Below, in pieces: positions 301-56,423 of a DNA stretch of 64,000 nucleotides; positions within the stretch are counted from its first letter, which is position 1; each line of letters opens with the position of its first letter. Location: contig JACPSW010000033.1 in NCBI GenBank assembly GCA_016193045.1, positions 43,020 to 107,019 of the forward strand, read 5' to 3'. Origin of the DNA: Candidatus Rokuibacteriota bacterium. GTDB lineage: Bacteria; Methylomirabilota; Methylomirabilia; Rokubacteriales; CSP1-6. A program made the position numbers and the translations under genes. Under the pieces are notes generated by a model, which saw only the letters and a list, made by a program, of their open reading frames with translations, made no database searches and had not been told where the DNA came from.

Positions 301-338
301 GGGCACGGGCACCCCGGGCTGTCGCCACGCCCGTGCCC
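301..338 (-). repeat. Stem-loop family member E1 (downstream of actF)
   Basis: The arms GGGCACGGGC (301-310) and GCCCGTGCCC (329-338) are perfectly complementary, 10 bp, around an 18-base loop (311-328). The loop is nearly identical to that of the copy at 54765-54799 and related to the one at 51962-51999, although the arm sequences differ. On the minus strand it lies just after the actF stop. It has no T-tract, so it is not a standard terminator. Confidence 0.6.
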
Positions 339-6775: not shown

Positions 6776-6986
6776 ACCCCCTTATTCACGAACGGGCGTC
6801 GCCTGCGGCGGGCGGGTCCTGTCGCAGGGTGCGGTCCCCGCGGGTCCGGCTCCGTCACCCACTCGCCCGAACGCCGCGCTGCGCACGGCGGACGGGACGA
6901 GGGGGGCCCACTGCGCGCGGCCCCGCGGGGACCGCACCCTGCGCCACCCGCCCGGTCGTGCCATCGCCGTTCGCGAATAATGCGCC
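6776..6986. mobile_element. MITE-like element, copy 1 (211 bp), between actA and actB
   Basis: A 211-bp element flanked by CTAG on both sides (6772-6775 and 6987-6990); the flanking identity even extends to CGCCCTAGACCC at 6768-6779 and 6983-6994. The ends are inverted: TTATTCACGAACGG from 6782, and its counterpart TTCGCGAATAA ending at 6980. Inside, the two halves form a long imperfect palindrome (GCGGTCCCCGCGGG in one arm, its inverse in the other). It is nearly identical to 9831-10041 and related to 60982-61107. It encodes no transposase. It separates actA from actB by 306 bases and stops 8 bases before the actB ATG. Confidence 0.85.
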
Positions 6987-7001
6987 CTAGACCCTGTTCG
7001 A

Positions 7002-9830: not shown

Positions 9831-10041
9831 CCTGGATTATTCACGAGCGATCGTCGCCCGCCGCGGGCGGGTCCTGTCGCAGGGCGCGGGCCCCGCAGGT
9901 CCGGCTCCGTCACCCACTCGCCCGAACGCCGCGCTCCGCGCGGCGGACGGGACGAGGGGGGCCCACTGCGCGCGGCCCCGCGGGGACCGCACCCTGCGCC
10001 ACCCGCCCGGTCGTTCCATCGCCTTTCGTGAATAGTGCGCG
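9831..10041. mobile_element. MITE-like element, copy 2 (211 bp), between cysK and cysO
   Basis: Same length and nearly the same sequence as copy 1. Flanks are CTAA (9827-9830) and CTAA (10042-10045). The second CTAA overlaps the cysK stop codon, TAG on the minus strand. Terminal inverted repeats are TTATTCACGA and TTTCGTGAATA. It carries only spurious open frames. Like copy 1 it splits an operon whose genes belong together. Confidence 0.85.
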
Positions 10042-11019
10042 CTAAAGGGGCAGGCTCAGGTATCGCTCGCCGGTGTCGGGAAGGACGGTCACGACCACCT
10101 GCTCGGGAGCGAGGCGCGCCGCCACCTGGCACGCCGCGAAGACGGCCGCGCCCGCCGAGATTCCCACCAGGAGCCCTTCCTCGCGCGTCAGGCGCCCGGC
10201 GGTGGCCATGGCGTCCTCGTCCCTCACCTGGATGATTTCGTCGATCACCTTCATGTTGAGCACACCTGGGACGAAGGAGGCCCCGATTCCCTGGATGGCG
10301 TGGGGGCGCGCCTTTCCGCCGGAGAGCACCGGGGACCTCGTCGGCTCTACGGCGACGATCCTGATCCCGGGGACTCTTTCCTTCAAGACTTCCCCCACTC
10401 CCGTAATCGTCCCTCCGGTCCCGACCCCCGCCACGAAGGCGTGAAGCCGTCCCTCGGTGGCGTCGAGAATCTCCAGCGCGGTCGTCCGGCGGTGGATCTC
10501 CGGGTTGGCCCGGTTCTCGAACTGCTGGGGCATGAAGTAGTCCGGGTGGGCGCGGAGGAGCTCGGCGGCGGCATGGACCGCTCCCGTCATCCCTTCGATG
10601 GCGGGCGTCAGCTGGAGCTCGGCGCCCAGCCGGGCCAGGAGCCGCTGGCGCTCCACGCTCATGTCGTCGGGCATCGTCAGGATGAGCCGGTAGCCGCGCA
10701 CGGCGGCGACCATGGCGAGGCCGATCCCCGTGTTGCCGCTGGTGGGCTCGACGATGGTGGAGCCCGGCCGGAGGAGGCCGCGCCGCTCCGCGTCCTCGAT
10801 CATGCTGACCGCGATCCGGTCCTTCACGCTTCCCGCGGGGTTCTGCGACTCCAGCTTTGCGAGGATCGTGGCGCCCCCGGGCTTGGGCAACCGGTTGAGG
10901 CGGACCAGCGGCGTGTTCCCGACCAGCTCGAGCACCGACGCGGCGACCCTCGGCCGCGCGGGGGCTTCCCCACGGCGCGTGGTGATGCCGCCCTTTCCTA
11001 TCGGGGTCTCGGGGGTCAT
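10042..11019 (-). CDS. cysK: Cysteine synthase (O-acetylserine or O-phosphoserine sulfhydrylase)
   Basis: A PLP enzyme of the CysK/CysM family, 325 residues. Motifs: PLP lysine in NPAGSVKDR, the serine/substrate loop [12 protein letters not shown], the phosphate loop [12 protein letters not shown] and C-terminal PDTGERYLS. Next to cysO and mec it probably uses CysO-thiocarboxylate as sulfur donor, as CysM of Mycobacterium does; sequence alone does not decide whether O-acetylserine or O-phosphoserine is used. Its TAG stop lies within the CTAA target duplication of MITE copy 2. The upstream gene is an Rrf2 regulator, 10 bases away. Confidence 0.92.
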
Positions 11020-34874: not shown

Positions 34875-35465
34875 TCAGTCCTCGAAGCCAATGTCCCGGA
34901 CGGCTTCCTTCGACTCCGGGACGGGCCCTCTGACCTTCCCCAGTGTCTCCCCCGCCCTCCGCAACCGCGCCTTCGCCCCCCGCGCGATGGCCACCTTGCC
35001 GGTGCGGACCAGCTCCTGGATGCCGAAGGGGCGCAGCAGTTCCACGATCGCGGTCACCTTCGACTCGTCCCCGGTGGCCTCGAGGGTGTACGTGGCGGGC
35101 GTCACGTCCACGACCTTCGCCCTGAAGATGTCGGCGATGCGCAAGATCTCGGCCCGCGACGTCGGCTCCGCGTTGACCTTGACGAGAATCATCTCTCGCT
35201 CGACGTGATTCTCTTCGGTCAGGTCGGTGACCTTGATCACGTCGATCAGCTTGTGCAGCTGCTTGATCACCTGCTCGATGACGAACGCGTCGCCGCGCAC
35301 GACCAACGTCATGCGGGAGACCGTCGGATCGAGCGTCTCGCCCACCGACAGGCTCTCGATGTTGTACCCCCGCGCGCTGAAGAGCCCCGCGACGCGCGAG
35401 AGCACGCCGAATCGGTTCTCGACCAGCACCGCGATCGTATGCTTCTGGGGCTCGTTATTAAGCAT
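34875..35465 (-). CDS. ilvN: Acetolactate synthase small (regulatory) subunit
   Basis: 196 residues. The N-terminal ACT domain starts [21 protein letters not shown], and a second ACT-like domain follows ([21 protein letters not shown]). It binds valine and activates IlvB. The upstream region is an unusual AT-rich tandem repeat rather than a normal intergenic gap. The ATG at 35465 is preceded by an in-frame TTG. Confidence 0.93.
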
Positions 35466-35569
35466 CAAAGAAACCTAAAAGCTGATTTTGGTCAAAGAAA
35501 CCTGAAAACTGATTTCACTCAAAACCACCTGAGAAGCCTTGAAGCTGATTTCACTGAAAACCGGAAGCT
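35466..35569. repeat. AT-rich imperfect tandem repeat between ilvB and ilvN
   Basis: About 100 bases made of three to four degenerate units of 27-36 bases, each with a TCAAAGAAACCT-like or TCAAAACCACCT-like start and an AGCTGATTT-like end (plus-strand view). It is strikingly AT-rich against its surroundings. ilvB stops at its edge and ilvN begins at its other edge. The repeats could pair in alternative ways in the mRNA, but no leader peptide is evident. Confidence 0.6.
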
Positions 35570-51955: not shown

Positions 51956-51961
51956 CTATCA

Positions 51962-51999
51962 GGGGGCGGGCACCCGGTGCGTAGCACACGCCCGCCCCC
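51962..51999 (-). repeat. Stem-loop family member E3 (directly upstream of the SIS gene)
   Basis: The arms GGGGGCGGGC (51962-51971) and GCCCGCCCCC (51990-51999) are perfectly complementary around an 18-base loop beginning ACCCGG as in E1 and E2. Within the loop the minus strand can form a small GTGC-TAC-GCAC hairpin where E1 and E2 can form GGC-GACA-GCC. It ends 6 bases before the SIS start codon. Confidence 0.6.
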
Positions 52000-52048
52000 C
52001 GCCGGAATCCTGGAGCGTGTCAGGTCCATCGCCCGATCGGAGTCGCGG

Positions 52049-52630
52049 TCATTGCGCTGCATAGCGTACCATTTCGGCGAAGTGGTGGTGGATGGTGGGG
52101 TCGGCGGCGAGCTCCGGGTGAAAGGTAGCGACCAGCACGGTTCCCTCCCGGGCCATCACGCACTCACCGCCGTGGGACGCGAGAGGAACGACGCGTGGGC
52201 CCAGCCGGCGAATCCGCGGGGCGCGGATGAACACCATGGTGAGGGAGCGCGGCTGCCCCTCCAAAGTCGTCTCTCCTTCGGCCTCGAAGGACTCCTTCTG
52301 GCGGCCGTAAGCGTTTCGCTCGACCGTCACGTCGATGAGCCCCAGGGAGCGCTGCTTCGGGTTGAGTACCTCCCGCGCCAGGACGATGAGACCAGCGCAC
52401 GTCCCGAAGATCGGCCTCCCGTTGGCGTGGAATTTCTCCAGGCCGGGGACGAATCGCCCCCCGTCCATGAGCTTCAGCAGCGTGGTGCTCTCGCCGCCCG
52501 GGATGATCAGCCCGTCCACCGCGGCGAGTTCCTCGGGCTTTCTCACCTCGGCCGACTCGACCCCCACGCGGCCCAGCGCCTTCCGGTGGAGGGCGAAGTC
52601 GCCCTGGAGCGCCAGAACCCCGATCTTCAC
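52049..52630 (-). CDS. pdxT: Pyridoxal 5'-phosphate synthase glutaminase subunit PdxT
   Basis: 193 residues. Supplies ammonia to PdxS. The class I glutaminase triad is visible: Cys in FGTCAGLIVLA and His/Glu in FHPEL. The oxyanion strand is PGGEST. I chose the GTG at 52630, preceded by GGGAGA, which gives the canonical start (M)KIGVLALQGDF; an ATG 15 bases upstream is possible. Confidence 0.94.
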   Translation of the reverse strand: MKIGVLALQGDFALHRKALGRVGVESAEVRKPEELAAVDGLIIPGGESTTLLKLMDGGRFVPGLEKFHANGRPIFGTCAGLIVLAREVLNPKQRSLGLIDVTVERNAYGRQKESFEAEGETTLEGQPRSLTMVFIRAPRIRRLGPRVVPLASHGGECVMAREGTVLVATFHPELAADPTIHHHFAEMVRYAAQ

Positions 52631-53581: not shown

Positions 53582-54748
53582 CTAGTTCTCGAGCGCGTCC
53601 TTCAGATCGTCGATCAGGTCCTCCACCGCCTCGAGGCCGACCGACAGCCTCACCAGGCCCGGCCCGATCCCCCTCTCGGCCTTGGCCGCGTCCGACATCC
53701 GGCGGTGGGAGGTCCTGGCCGGGTAGGTCCACGTCGTCGCCACATCGCCGAAGCTCGGGGCGAATTCGATCAGCCTGAGCCGCTTCATCAGCCGCTCGAC
53801 CGCGGGAGCCCCGCCCCCGAGGTCGAAGGACAGCATCGCCCCGGCTCCGTTCTTGAACAGGCGCGCGGCCAGCCCGTGTTGCGGGTGGGACGGCAGCCCC
53901 GGATAGTAGACGCGCTCCACCCCCGGCCGCCCTTCCAGAAACCGCGCGAGCACCAGCGCATTGGCGCACTGCCGTTCCAGCCGGACGTGCAGCGTCCTGA
54001 GCCCGCGGGCCGCGAGCCAGCAGTCGAAGGAGCCCAGGTTGGTCCCGACCCGGATCGCGGCCGCGCGCACCGGCTCCACCACCGCGCGGCTCCCCACCAC
54101 GACCCCCGCCGTCACGTCGCCGTGGCCCGAGATGAACTTGGTGGCGCTGTGAAGCACGACGCCCGCCCCGAGGCCGATCGGCCTCAGCACAGCCGGAGAG
54201 GCGAGGCTCGAATCCACGATCAGGTCCACGCCCCGCCCCGCGAGCCCCGCCGCCAGCGCCTCGACGTCCACCAGCCTCAGCAGCGGATTGGACAGCGCCT
54301 CGACGAAGACCGCGCGCGTCTTCGGGATCAGCGCCGCCACGACGCGTTCGGGGTCGGACGCGTCCACGAAGCTCACCTCGATCCCGAACCGCCCGACCTC
54401 CTCGGTGAAGAGCGCCGTGGTGGAGCCGTAGAGGTCCCGGGCCGCCACCAGGTGATCCCCCCGCCGGAGGAGCCCCAGCAGCAGGGCGGTGGTGGCGCCC
54501 ATCCCCGACGCGCACGCCACGGCCGCCTCCCCGCCTTCCAGTTCCGCGACCATCGCCTCCAGCATGGCGTGGTTCGGCGTACCGTACCGGCCGTACACGA
54601 ACCCGCGCTCCTTGCCCTCCCAGACGGCCTCCACCTGCGCCATCGAATCGAAGACGAAGACGTTGGTCTGGTAGAGCGGCGGGGTCAGCGGCCGGTTGGC
54701 CGACGGCACGTCCCGACCCCCCCGGGCGGCGATAGTCTCGAAACGCAT
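53582..54748 (-). CDS. Cystathionine gamma-synthase/lyase-family PLP enzyme
   Basis: 388 residues, Cys/Met metabolism PLP family. The N-terminal [10 protein letters not shown] and YGRYGTPN bind PLP phosphate and substrate; the Schiff-base lysine is in [13 protein letters not shown]. Family members include MetB, MetC, MetZ and methionine gamma-lyase, which are hard to separate by eye. The ATG at 54748 follows AAGGAG. Stem-loop E2 sits directly before that RBS. Being next to pdxS/pdxT it lies with its own cofactor supply. Confidence 0.85.
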
Positions 54749-54764: not shown

Positions 54765-54799
54765 GGGGCGGGCACCCGGGCTGTCGCCACGCCCGCCCC
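54765..54799 (-). repeat. Stem-loop family member E2 (directly upstream of the trans-sulfuration gene)
   Basis: The arms GGGGCGGGC (54765-54773) and GCCCGCCCC (54791-54799) pair perfectly around the 17-base loop ACCCGGGCTGTCGCCAC, which is the E1 loop minus one C. The 3' flank on the minus strand, CCCAGGTGA, is shared with E1. It lies a few bases before the RBS of the gene. Confidence 0.6.
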
Positions 54800-54878: not shown

Positions 54879-56423
54879 TCACACGAGGGGGACGGTCGAA
54901 CGTTCCACGTCTTGCCGCGGAGACGGCCGGCTCATGGCCTGGCGAATCACCTCGGCCAGGCGCCGGATCCCTTCGTCGATCCTCAGGGCCGGGGTGGACG
55001 AGAAGCTCAGGCGAAACGTGGACTCGCCCCCGCCGTTCACGAAGAAGACGCTCCCCGGGGTGAAGGCCACGCCCCGCTCCACGGCGCCCGGCAGCAGGGC
55101 CTCGGCGTCGATCCTCTCGGGGAGCCTGACCAGAGAGGAGAAGCCTCCCTGAGCCTCCGTCCACGTCACGCCCTTCGGCATCCGCCTGGCCAGGGAGCGC
55201 AAGAGGATCGTGCGGCGCCGCCCGTACTCCGCCGCGCAGCGCGAGAGATGGCGCCCCAGCAACCGGCGCTGACAGAAGTGCAACGCGGCGGCCTGGATGA
55301 GCGGGCTCGTGTGGATATCCGAGAGCTGCTTGGCCATCTCCAGGCGCTCCAGGAGCGGCCGCGGCGCCACGAGCCAGCCGAGGCGGAGGCCGGGAAAGAG
55401 GATCTTGGAGAACGTCCCGATGTAGATGACGAGACGGGAGGCGTCGGCCGCCTTGAGCGGCGCCGGCTGCCGGTCGCCGAACGAGAGGCCCCCGTCGAAG
55501 CCGTCCTCGACCACCGGGACCCGATGGCGCGCGGCCAGCGCCAGGAGGCCGCGGCGGGCCTCGGCGGAGAGCGTGAGGCCGGTGGGGTTGTGGGCCGTGG
55601 GCTGACAGTAGAGGAGCTTGGGCGCATGACGCCCCAGCACCCGCTCGAGCGCGTCGAGCCGCAGGCCCTCGTTCCCCAGAGGGACCGGCAGGAGCTGGGC
55701 CCCGAAGGCGCGAAAGACTTGGATCGCGCGCGAGTAGCTGGGCTCCTCGATCGCCACGGAGTCGCCGGGGTCCAGCAGGACCCGCGCGATCAGATCGAGC
55801 CCCTGCTGGGAGCCGTTGACGATCAGGATCTCCTCCGGCCTCGCCTCCACACCGAACCTCAGGAGGTGGCCGGCGAGGAACTGCCGGAGCGGCGGATACC
55901 CGCCGACGGGGGAGTACTGGAGCAGCTCGGGTCCCTCGGCCCGGATCACCCGGTTCAACGCGCGGCGAAAGGCCTCCGTCGGGAAGAGGCCGCTGTCCGG
56001 CATCCCCCCGGCGAACGAGATGAGCCCGGGCACCGAGCGTACGGCCTGGCTCGACGGTGCCCGGCGTCGCCCATCGGCGTCGGCGAGCTGCGACCCTTTG
56101 GAGAAAAGGCTGGACCAGTCCAGCCCTGACGGGAGGTTAGACGGCAAAGCCTGCGACTTCTCTTCAGGCGCCGCAACGAAGGTCCCCTGGCCAACGTGGG
56201 CGCGGGCGAGGCCCTCCGACACCAGCTCCTCATAGGCCAGCGACACCGTGGCCCGGTTCACGCCCAGGTCCCTGGCCAACTCCCGGCCAGCCGGGAGCTT
56301 CACCCCGGGCGCGAGAATCCCCTCCCGGATCAGGCGCTCCAGCCGCGAGCGAATCTGTTTCGTCAGGGGCACGGGCGAGGCGCGATCTATCCGGATCTCC
56401 ACGGGATCCTCCGTCTGAGCCAT
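54879..56423 (-). CDS. pdxR: MocR/PdxR-type regulator (GntR HTH fused to aminotransferase domain)
   Basis: 514 residues. N-terminal winged helix (LPAGRELARDLGVNRATVSLAYEEL), a linker rich in Ser/Gln, then a fold-type I aminotransferase-like domain with PLP lysine in GTFSKILFPGLRLGW. PdxR proteins sense PLP and control pdxST, which lie two genes downstream. The ATG at 56423 is chosen because a TACAAT -10 lies 18 bases upstream inside the longer frame. Confidence 0.85.
   Translation of the reverse strand: MAQTEDPVEIRIDRASPVPLTKQIRSRLERLIREGILAPGVKLPAGRELARDLGVNRATVSLAYEELVSEGLARAHVGQGTFVAAPEEKSQALPSNLPSGLDWSSLFSKGSQLADADGRRRAPSSQAVRSVPGLISFAGGMPDSGLFPTEAFRRALNRVIRAEGPELLQYSPVGGYPPLRQFLAGHLLRFGVEARPEEILIVNGSQQGLDLIARVLLDPGDSVAIEEPSYSRAIQVFRAFGAQLLPVPLGNEGLRLDALERVLGRHAPKLLYCQPTAHNPTGLTLSAEARRGLLALAARHRVPVVEDGFDGGLSFGDRQPAPLKAADASRLVIYIGTFSKILFPGLRLGWLVAPRPLLERLEMAKQLSDIHTSPLIQAAALHFCQRRLLGRHLSRCAAEYGRRRTILLRSLARRMPKGVTWTEAQGGFSSLVRLPERIDAEALLPGAVERGVAFTPGSVFFVNGGGESTFRLSFSSTPALRIDEGIRRLAEVIRQAMSRPSPRQDVERSTVPLV

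Follow-up and report, generated by a model that had tools for sequence, protein, structure and literature searches.

A short palindromic repeat that is dispersed through the genomes of Rokubacteria, and of which three copies lie in the 64,000-nucleotide stretch of DNA analysed here (the window), is probably a Rokubacteria-specific, non-autonomous element of the REP/ERIC-like kind, which enters operon junctions directionally and whose hairpin is kept in the mRNA. This reading draws on the observed family of copies, its taxonomic limits, the bias in orientation and position of its sites, the occurrence of empty and filled sites, and covariation in the hairpin. Counted against it are the lack of terminal inverted repeats, of a clear target duplication, and of a transposase matched to the family. 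The repeat is classed as a new family among small interspersed palindromic repeats on the basis of its many short, intergenic, foldable and non-coding copies, its restriction to one lineage and its empty orthologous sites, and as a variant of that class by its placement at gene junctions in one direction. Its new features are the missing terminal inverted repeats, the sense-only placement of one element per junction, and compensatory changes in the arms at shared sites.

Structure of the repeat unit

The first-pass annotation had described a family of stem-loops of 35 to 38 nt, oriented like the genes, with perfect arms that differ from copy to copy. Inspection of the sequence bears out the coordinates and arms of all three hairpins (E1 to E3) and both variants of the mini-hairpin that they enclose (GGC/GCC in E1 and E2, GTGC/GCAC in E3). 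The agreement with gene orientation also stands, but the sequence quoted was that of the plus strand and hence antisense, as genes and element are read on the minus strand. The family is real, but its extent was underestimated: each hairpin is the end of a repeat of about 98 to 128 nt.

301 to 338, minus strand: E1 hairpin, arms GGGCACGGGC/GCCCGTGCCC around a GGC-GACA-GCC mini-hairpin; covariance-model match of 81.0 bits
296 to 390 (ends approximate), minus strand: E1 full element, extending into the 3' end of the gene at 364-1479
51962 to 51999, minus strand: E3 hairpin, 10-bp outer stem GGGGGCGGGC/GCCCGCCCCC, inner stem GTGC/GCAC with a TAC loop, and the conserved CCGGGTGCCC
G000:C178:94971-95063, minus strand: E3 covariance-model match of 69.1 bits, also matched by the strict pattern
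51957 to 52053 (ends approximate), minus strand: E3 full element, from comparison of filled and empty sites
54765 to 54799, minus strand: E2 hairpin, arms GGGGCGGGC/GCCCGCCCC around a GGC-GACA-GCC mini-hairpin; covariance-model match of 89.5 bits
54760 to 54878 (ends approximate), minus strand: E2 full element, from comparison with the empty site

The pattern GGGCACCC-N(6-16)-CGCCCG, which spans loop and arm bases, occurs three times in the window, exactly at E1 to E3, against 0.22 occurrences expected, and none of 100 shuffled sequences reaches three. On the gene strand, the unit begins with a conserved 5' box, GRCTSRGATCGSGC, followed by about 28 variable nucleotides, TTCCGGCGGGG, the first arm of a 9-11-bp stem, a mini-hairpin of the form GGC-GACA-GCC, CGGGT and the second arm. 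The 3' side of the second arm carries CAGGTGAAGGAG or CTGTTCAATGA and runs into the next gene. More generally the mini-hairpin can be written GGC-G(N)NA-GCC, its loop starting with G and ending with A in 151 of 163 cases. At four loci (L071, L200:2675-2791, L116:7673-7803 and L339), long extra sequence lies in the apical loop and the outer stem is still paired.

Units also occur in head-to-tail tandem arrays, as direct repeats with a period of 88-91 or 128 nt. One orthologous site holds four tandem units in G030 (L158:1736-2090) versus one in G041 (L163:2001-2090), from which it can be seen that array length shifts quickly.

The window contains other repeats besides this family. A direct repeat of 208 nt is present at 6782-6989 and 9837-10044, with copies that are 93% identical and 3055 nt apart, and a short AT-rich tandem repeat of 27 nt (TCAAAGAAACCT...), unusual in a GC-rich genome, occupies 35465-35554.

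Copy number and taxonomic range

Copy counts rest on searches with a covariance model that was built from 21 copies. The genome from which the window derives (3.86 Mb in 181 contigs) yields 32 matches to this model, 31 of them at E<1e-3, and 22 strict copies as compared with none for a reversed control pattern. Two of its contig ends (L002 on C7 and L008 on C52) carry a near-identical element with near-identical flanks, which reflects either segmental duplication or strain variation within the metagenome-assembled genome (MAG).

Among 99 relatives, 50 have model matches, the strong ones being confined to the same family of organisms. Within that family the distribution is patchy, ranging from 0 to 44 copies per genome and with some genera having none. 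When genomes of 84,980 species were scanned with the exact pattern, 21 contigs matched and all 21 belong to Rokubacteria. Viral contigs gave no exact match to the repeat, and a phage origin was dropped on that ground. A search of the openly accessible literature on repeats in Rokubacteria found no description of the family.

Empty and filled sites

Eighteen sites in the window genome were compared with their orthologs in the sister genomes G001 and G002 (searched with one concatenated query), for a total of 30 sister loci. Seventeen of the 18 sites are empty in the sisters, with an element in only one of the 30 loci. One additional site, situated within an open reading frame (ORF), is common to the window genome and G002, which is of the same genus. 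The pattern is that of an inserted element which is gained and lost, and not that of a conserved regulon.

The three copies in the window follow this pattern. None of the relatives examined has an element at the E2 or E3 junction; for E2 these include both G001 and G002. E2 is flanked by the stop codon of the gene at 54879-56402 and by the AAGGAG Shine-Dalgarno sequence of the gene at 53582-54748, whose predicted product, named from resemblance, is a PLP-dependent sulfur-amino-acid enzyme. E3 separates a glutaminase-like (PdxT-like) gene from a SIS-domain gene, and the orthologs of these two overlap in G001. The E1 junction is empty in G001, G002 and most other relatives, and elements adjoin the orthologous gene in G007 and G013. 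E1 had been placed directly after a stop codon, but no ordinary stop is found there. Instead, the gene at 364-1479, which by resemblance would encode an NrfD-like membrane protein, has lost its final codons and its own stop to the element, and the element now supplies its stop codon. The C-terminus accordingly reads ...FRMTTTQIGR* as against ...LKPRF* in the sisters, and the match to the sister ortholog stops at residue 363.

Clean pairs of empty and filled sites define the insertions more closely. One insertion of 121 nt (GAGCCATTC^GGAGACC) and one of 257 nt (CCT^AAGGAG, two units of 128 nt) each have two empty relatives for comparison, and about 98 nt open the TAATG overlap between oppB and oppC in G039 and G005, a junction that is empty in their congener G026. 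In the clean pairs, the inserted sequence follows the stop codon of the upstream gene and precedes the Shine-Dalgarno sequence or start codon of the downstream one. Terminal inverted repeats are absent from the clean insertions, whose ends read AGC.. or TGAC.. on one side and ..CAGGTG or ..TTCAA on the other, and no target duplication is seen at the 121-nt and 257-nt insertions. At overlapping TAATG/TGATG junctions such as that of oppB and oppC, an ATG-containing repeat could be a target duplication.

Junctions occupied in several genera include those of oppC, an SDR operon and mlaD, among others. They are somewhat more numerous than the approximately three expected by chance under random insertion (a rough estimate made without a formal test), and thus some sites are preferred or were inherited from long ago.

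Placement at gene junctions

Gene calls from a simple codon-based caller allowed 157 sites to be classified. Co-directional gene pairs hold 103 copies in sense and 11 in antisense orientation, 14 copies are in divergent and 10 in convergent intergenic regions, and the remainder lie within called ORFs or at contig ends. The sense preference at co-directional sites (103 of 114) has p = 7e-20 if sites are taken as independent, an assumption that orthologous sites violate. Positional bias had been proposed as a check on the family, and a strong bias toward gene starts is indeed found, with the 3' edge falling from -6 to +15 nt of the start codon at 82 of the 103 sense sites. Antisense and convergent copies often have their 3' edge directly against the stop codon of the gene on the opposite strand.

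Most sense copies (70 of 103) are in junctions with 40 nt or less left over. Such tight junctions make up 73% of co-directional junctions and only about 7% of intergenic bases, and the frequency of sites tracks the number of junctions rather than intergenic length. Random insertion into any tolerated intergenic base is ruled out, because tight junctions are heavily over-used for their length. A role for the element as a donor of Shine-Dalgarno sequences is likewise unsupported, as many empty sites already have a GGAG-like site, and Shine-Dalgarno sequences are found about equally often at element-adjacent starts (59 of 98) and at other starts (189 of 385).

A different palindromic repeat, CCCTCACCC...CTCTCCC...GGGGAGAGGG, is present in G002 (L309 and L325) at two junctions where the window genome has the element, as though more than one repeat family could settle at some junctions.

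Pairing of the hairpin and the question of host benefit

An alignment of 143 distinct matches has 95.9% of its cells paired, a percentage biased upward because the alignment was fitted to the hairpin structure. Five pairs show changes on both sides. The covariation of the arms noted in the first three copies holds in this larger set, in which 114 cells are double-changed, where shuffles give 40 +/- 7 and slid controls 0-6. These changes are plain in the arms GGGGCGGGC, GGCACGGGC, GGGATGGGC, GGCTGGGC, GGCGTGGGC and GGTGCGGGC, each of which occurs with its complement.

Changes of this type are also found at shared sites. At one junction, the arms are GGGGCGGGC/GCCCGCCCC versus GGCACGGGC/GCCCGTGCC in G010 and G030/G041, and the 5' box drifts. 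At the in-ORF site common to the window genome and G002, the inner stem has its two strands exchanged (GCC/GGC versus GGC/GCC in G002/G000); an in-frame element is seen in a TPP-decarboxylase-like ORF in both genomes (L198:6907-6998 on C113 of the window genome, L107:2001-2092 in G002). Compensatory arm changes at seemingly inherited sites suggest that pairing matters after insertion, although they may also stem from gene conversion in arrays or from reinsertion.

These observations give reason to consider that the element might be beneficial to its host, acting on the stability, processing or translational insulation of intercistronic mRNA and spreading because it is useful, with its mobile history being secondary. 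Compensation in the arms while the 5' domain drifts fits this explanation, as does the usual location of the hairpin next to translation signals. We nevertheless regard it as unlikely, if the strongest of the alternatives. Seventeen of the 18 sites are not shared with the sisters, several hairpins are interrupted by large insertions in the loop or have decayed (L071, L116 and L322), and gene conversion in tandem arrays could mimic compensation in place. Furthermore, the consensus fold pairs the hairpin only, with no structure for the 5' box, and single-sequence folds of whole elements are no better than those of shuffled sequences (z from -1.1 to 0.1). The structural evidence therefore covers the hairpin only.

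Probable mode of spread

If the repeat is a dispersed element that enters operon junctions, its copies have spread to junctions singly, chiefly by entering the gaps between a stop codon and a Shine-Dalgarno sequence or start codon, and in the same reading direction as the genes. After insertion, a copy would be part of the operon transcript, forming an intercistronic hairpin immediately 5' of the ribosome-binding site. Its 5' edge often supplies or abuts the upstream stop codon and its 3' edge abuts the downstream start, so that both genes can still be translated. Mobility would probably depend on a trans-acting enzyme that acts on the single-stranded hairpin, the effect on the host would be mild or absent, and selection may hold the hairpin paired at some occupied sites.

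A more specific proposal is that the element is of the REP/REPIN type, in which a Y1 (HUH) tyrosine transposase, either a RAYT or one of the IS200/IS605 type, mobilizes a single-stranded hairpin. IS200/IS605 elements insert without target duplication and have no terminal inverted repeats, which matches the insertions described above, and the covarying hairpin with its G..A loop is also of the expected kind. Compensatory changes have been reported for REPINs too (PMC3116915). However, the distribution of candidate enzymes makes this proposal rather improbable. Matches to PF01797 (Y1/RAYT) show no correlation with copy number across 60 genomes, which are incomplete MAGs. The copy-rich genomes G013 and G030 (43 copies each) lack any Y1 domain that reaches the Pfam cut-off, though incomplete assembly could hide the gene, whereas the copy-free genomes G004, G011 and G020 each have one. 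In the window genome, neither of the two contigs that bear Y1 genes (C122 and C177) has a model match, and units are arranged as direct tandems rather than as inverted doublets. An integron attC site was dropped from consideration, as inspection by eye found no RYYYAAC/GTTRRRY core sites.

It is similarly doubtful that the repeat is a mobile hairpin fitted to gene boundaries, inserted directionally where stop codon, Shine-Dalgarno sequence and start codon meet in operons, perhaps through recognition of mRNA or of translation starts, and then selected as an intercistronic RNA spacer with a compensating stem. If true, this would be a directional mode of junction targeting that is without description for REP, ERIC or MITE elements in the literature compared.

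Proposed regulatory leader and terminator functions

The first-pass annotation left a choice between a structured repeat, which the evidence upholds, and a regulatory leader, which it does not. A cis-regulatory leader (a riboswitch, an attenuator or a protein-binding site) serving a common regulon could account for covariation, sense orientation and position near start codons, and a few junctions (mlaD, oppC and the SDR operon) are common to several genera. This function is nonetheless very improbable. The 106 downstream genes make up 75 clusters, and their products appear from sequence reading to be as diverse as topoisomerase I, DAHP synthase, acyl-CoA dehydrogenase, an HNH nuclease and MlaD. 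The element is absent from the same genes in sister species, and E1 and the convergent copies have no adjacent downstream gene. In Rfam searches, nothing in the window reaches gathering level, and E1 to E3 lack even a meaningful weak match. A shared regulon is ruled out by the diversity of downstream genes together with absence from sister species, and copies in a 5' UTR are a single instance of the more general insertion at gene junctions. Because insertion is almost always in sense orientation between neighboring genes and the hairpin is paired, the copies are probably mobile-like structured spacers and not a switch for one set of genes.

That the hairpins are intrinsic transcription terminators between genes is scarcely credible, since, despite their GC-rich stem, their intergenic location and some copies upstream of a TTGACA-TATCNT-like promoter (L002 and L059), they have no U-tract 3' of the stem, where AGGTGAAGGAG or CTGTTCAATGA leads into the start codon, and most lie within tight co-directional gene pairs.

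Comparison with known small repeats

Among described families, the 127-bp enterobacterial ERIC (also IRU or RU-1) resembles the Rokubacteria repeat in size, in its many intergenic copies and in folding as an RNA hairpin. ERIC elements are co-transcribed in operons with orientation-dependent effects on mRNA (PMC2229807, PMC3049150). Most small repeats of this kind are A+T-rich, end in TA, carry terminal inverted repeats and are flanked by target duplications (PMC2229807). None of these four properties is clear in the Rokubacteria repeat. It is also unrelated to ERIC in sequence, found only in Rokubacteria and predominantly in sense orientation (103:11). MITEs are ruled out on the matter of terminal inverted repeats, none being present in the clean insertions.

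REP and REPIN sequences are likewise dispersed extragenic palindromes with compensatory changes and clusters (PMC3116915). REPINs, however, are inverted doublets, linked to RAYT and randomly spread in extragenic space, whereas the Rokubacteria repeat consists of direct units, has no linked Y1 gene and lies mostly at junctions in one direction. The BOX, RUP and SPRITE repeats of pneumococcus are small, modular and transcribed as 5' or 3' extensions of operons (PMC3049150), but BOX and RUP carry terminal inverted repeats that are similar to the ones of an IS element, and their sequence and host are different.

YPAL (RU-2) of Yersinia shares with the Rokubacteria repeat the absence of A+T-richness and TA ends, inverted repeats that are internal, and mobility as seen from empty and filled sites. 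It differs in its length of 168 bp, its target duplications of 3-26 bp and its targets at dyad symmetries, and no gene-direction bias is described for it in the available text (PMC2229807). Repeats such as ERIC, BOX or YPAL share the transcripts of operons and can alter the stability of the mRNA according to their orientation (PMC2229807, PMC3049150). By analogy, the Rokubacteria repeat would work like them, through putative co-transcription and orientation-dependent stability of the mRNA.

Implications

Rokubacteria genomes in this analysis are metagenome assemblies and experiments with these organisms are hard, so comparative evidence counts. The same junction with and without the element in close relatives offers many natural tests of the effect of the hairpin on an operon, and such pairs also bear on the one-directional entry into gene boundaries of a repeat that has no terminal inverted repeats. 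For the bacteria themselves, the family would be a previously undescribed repeat that alters the mRNA between cistrons in dozens of operons in each genome.
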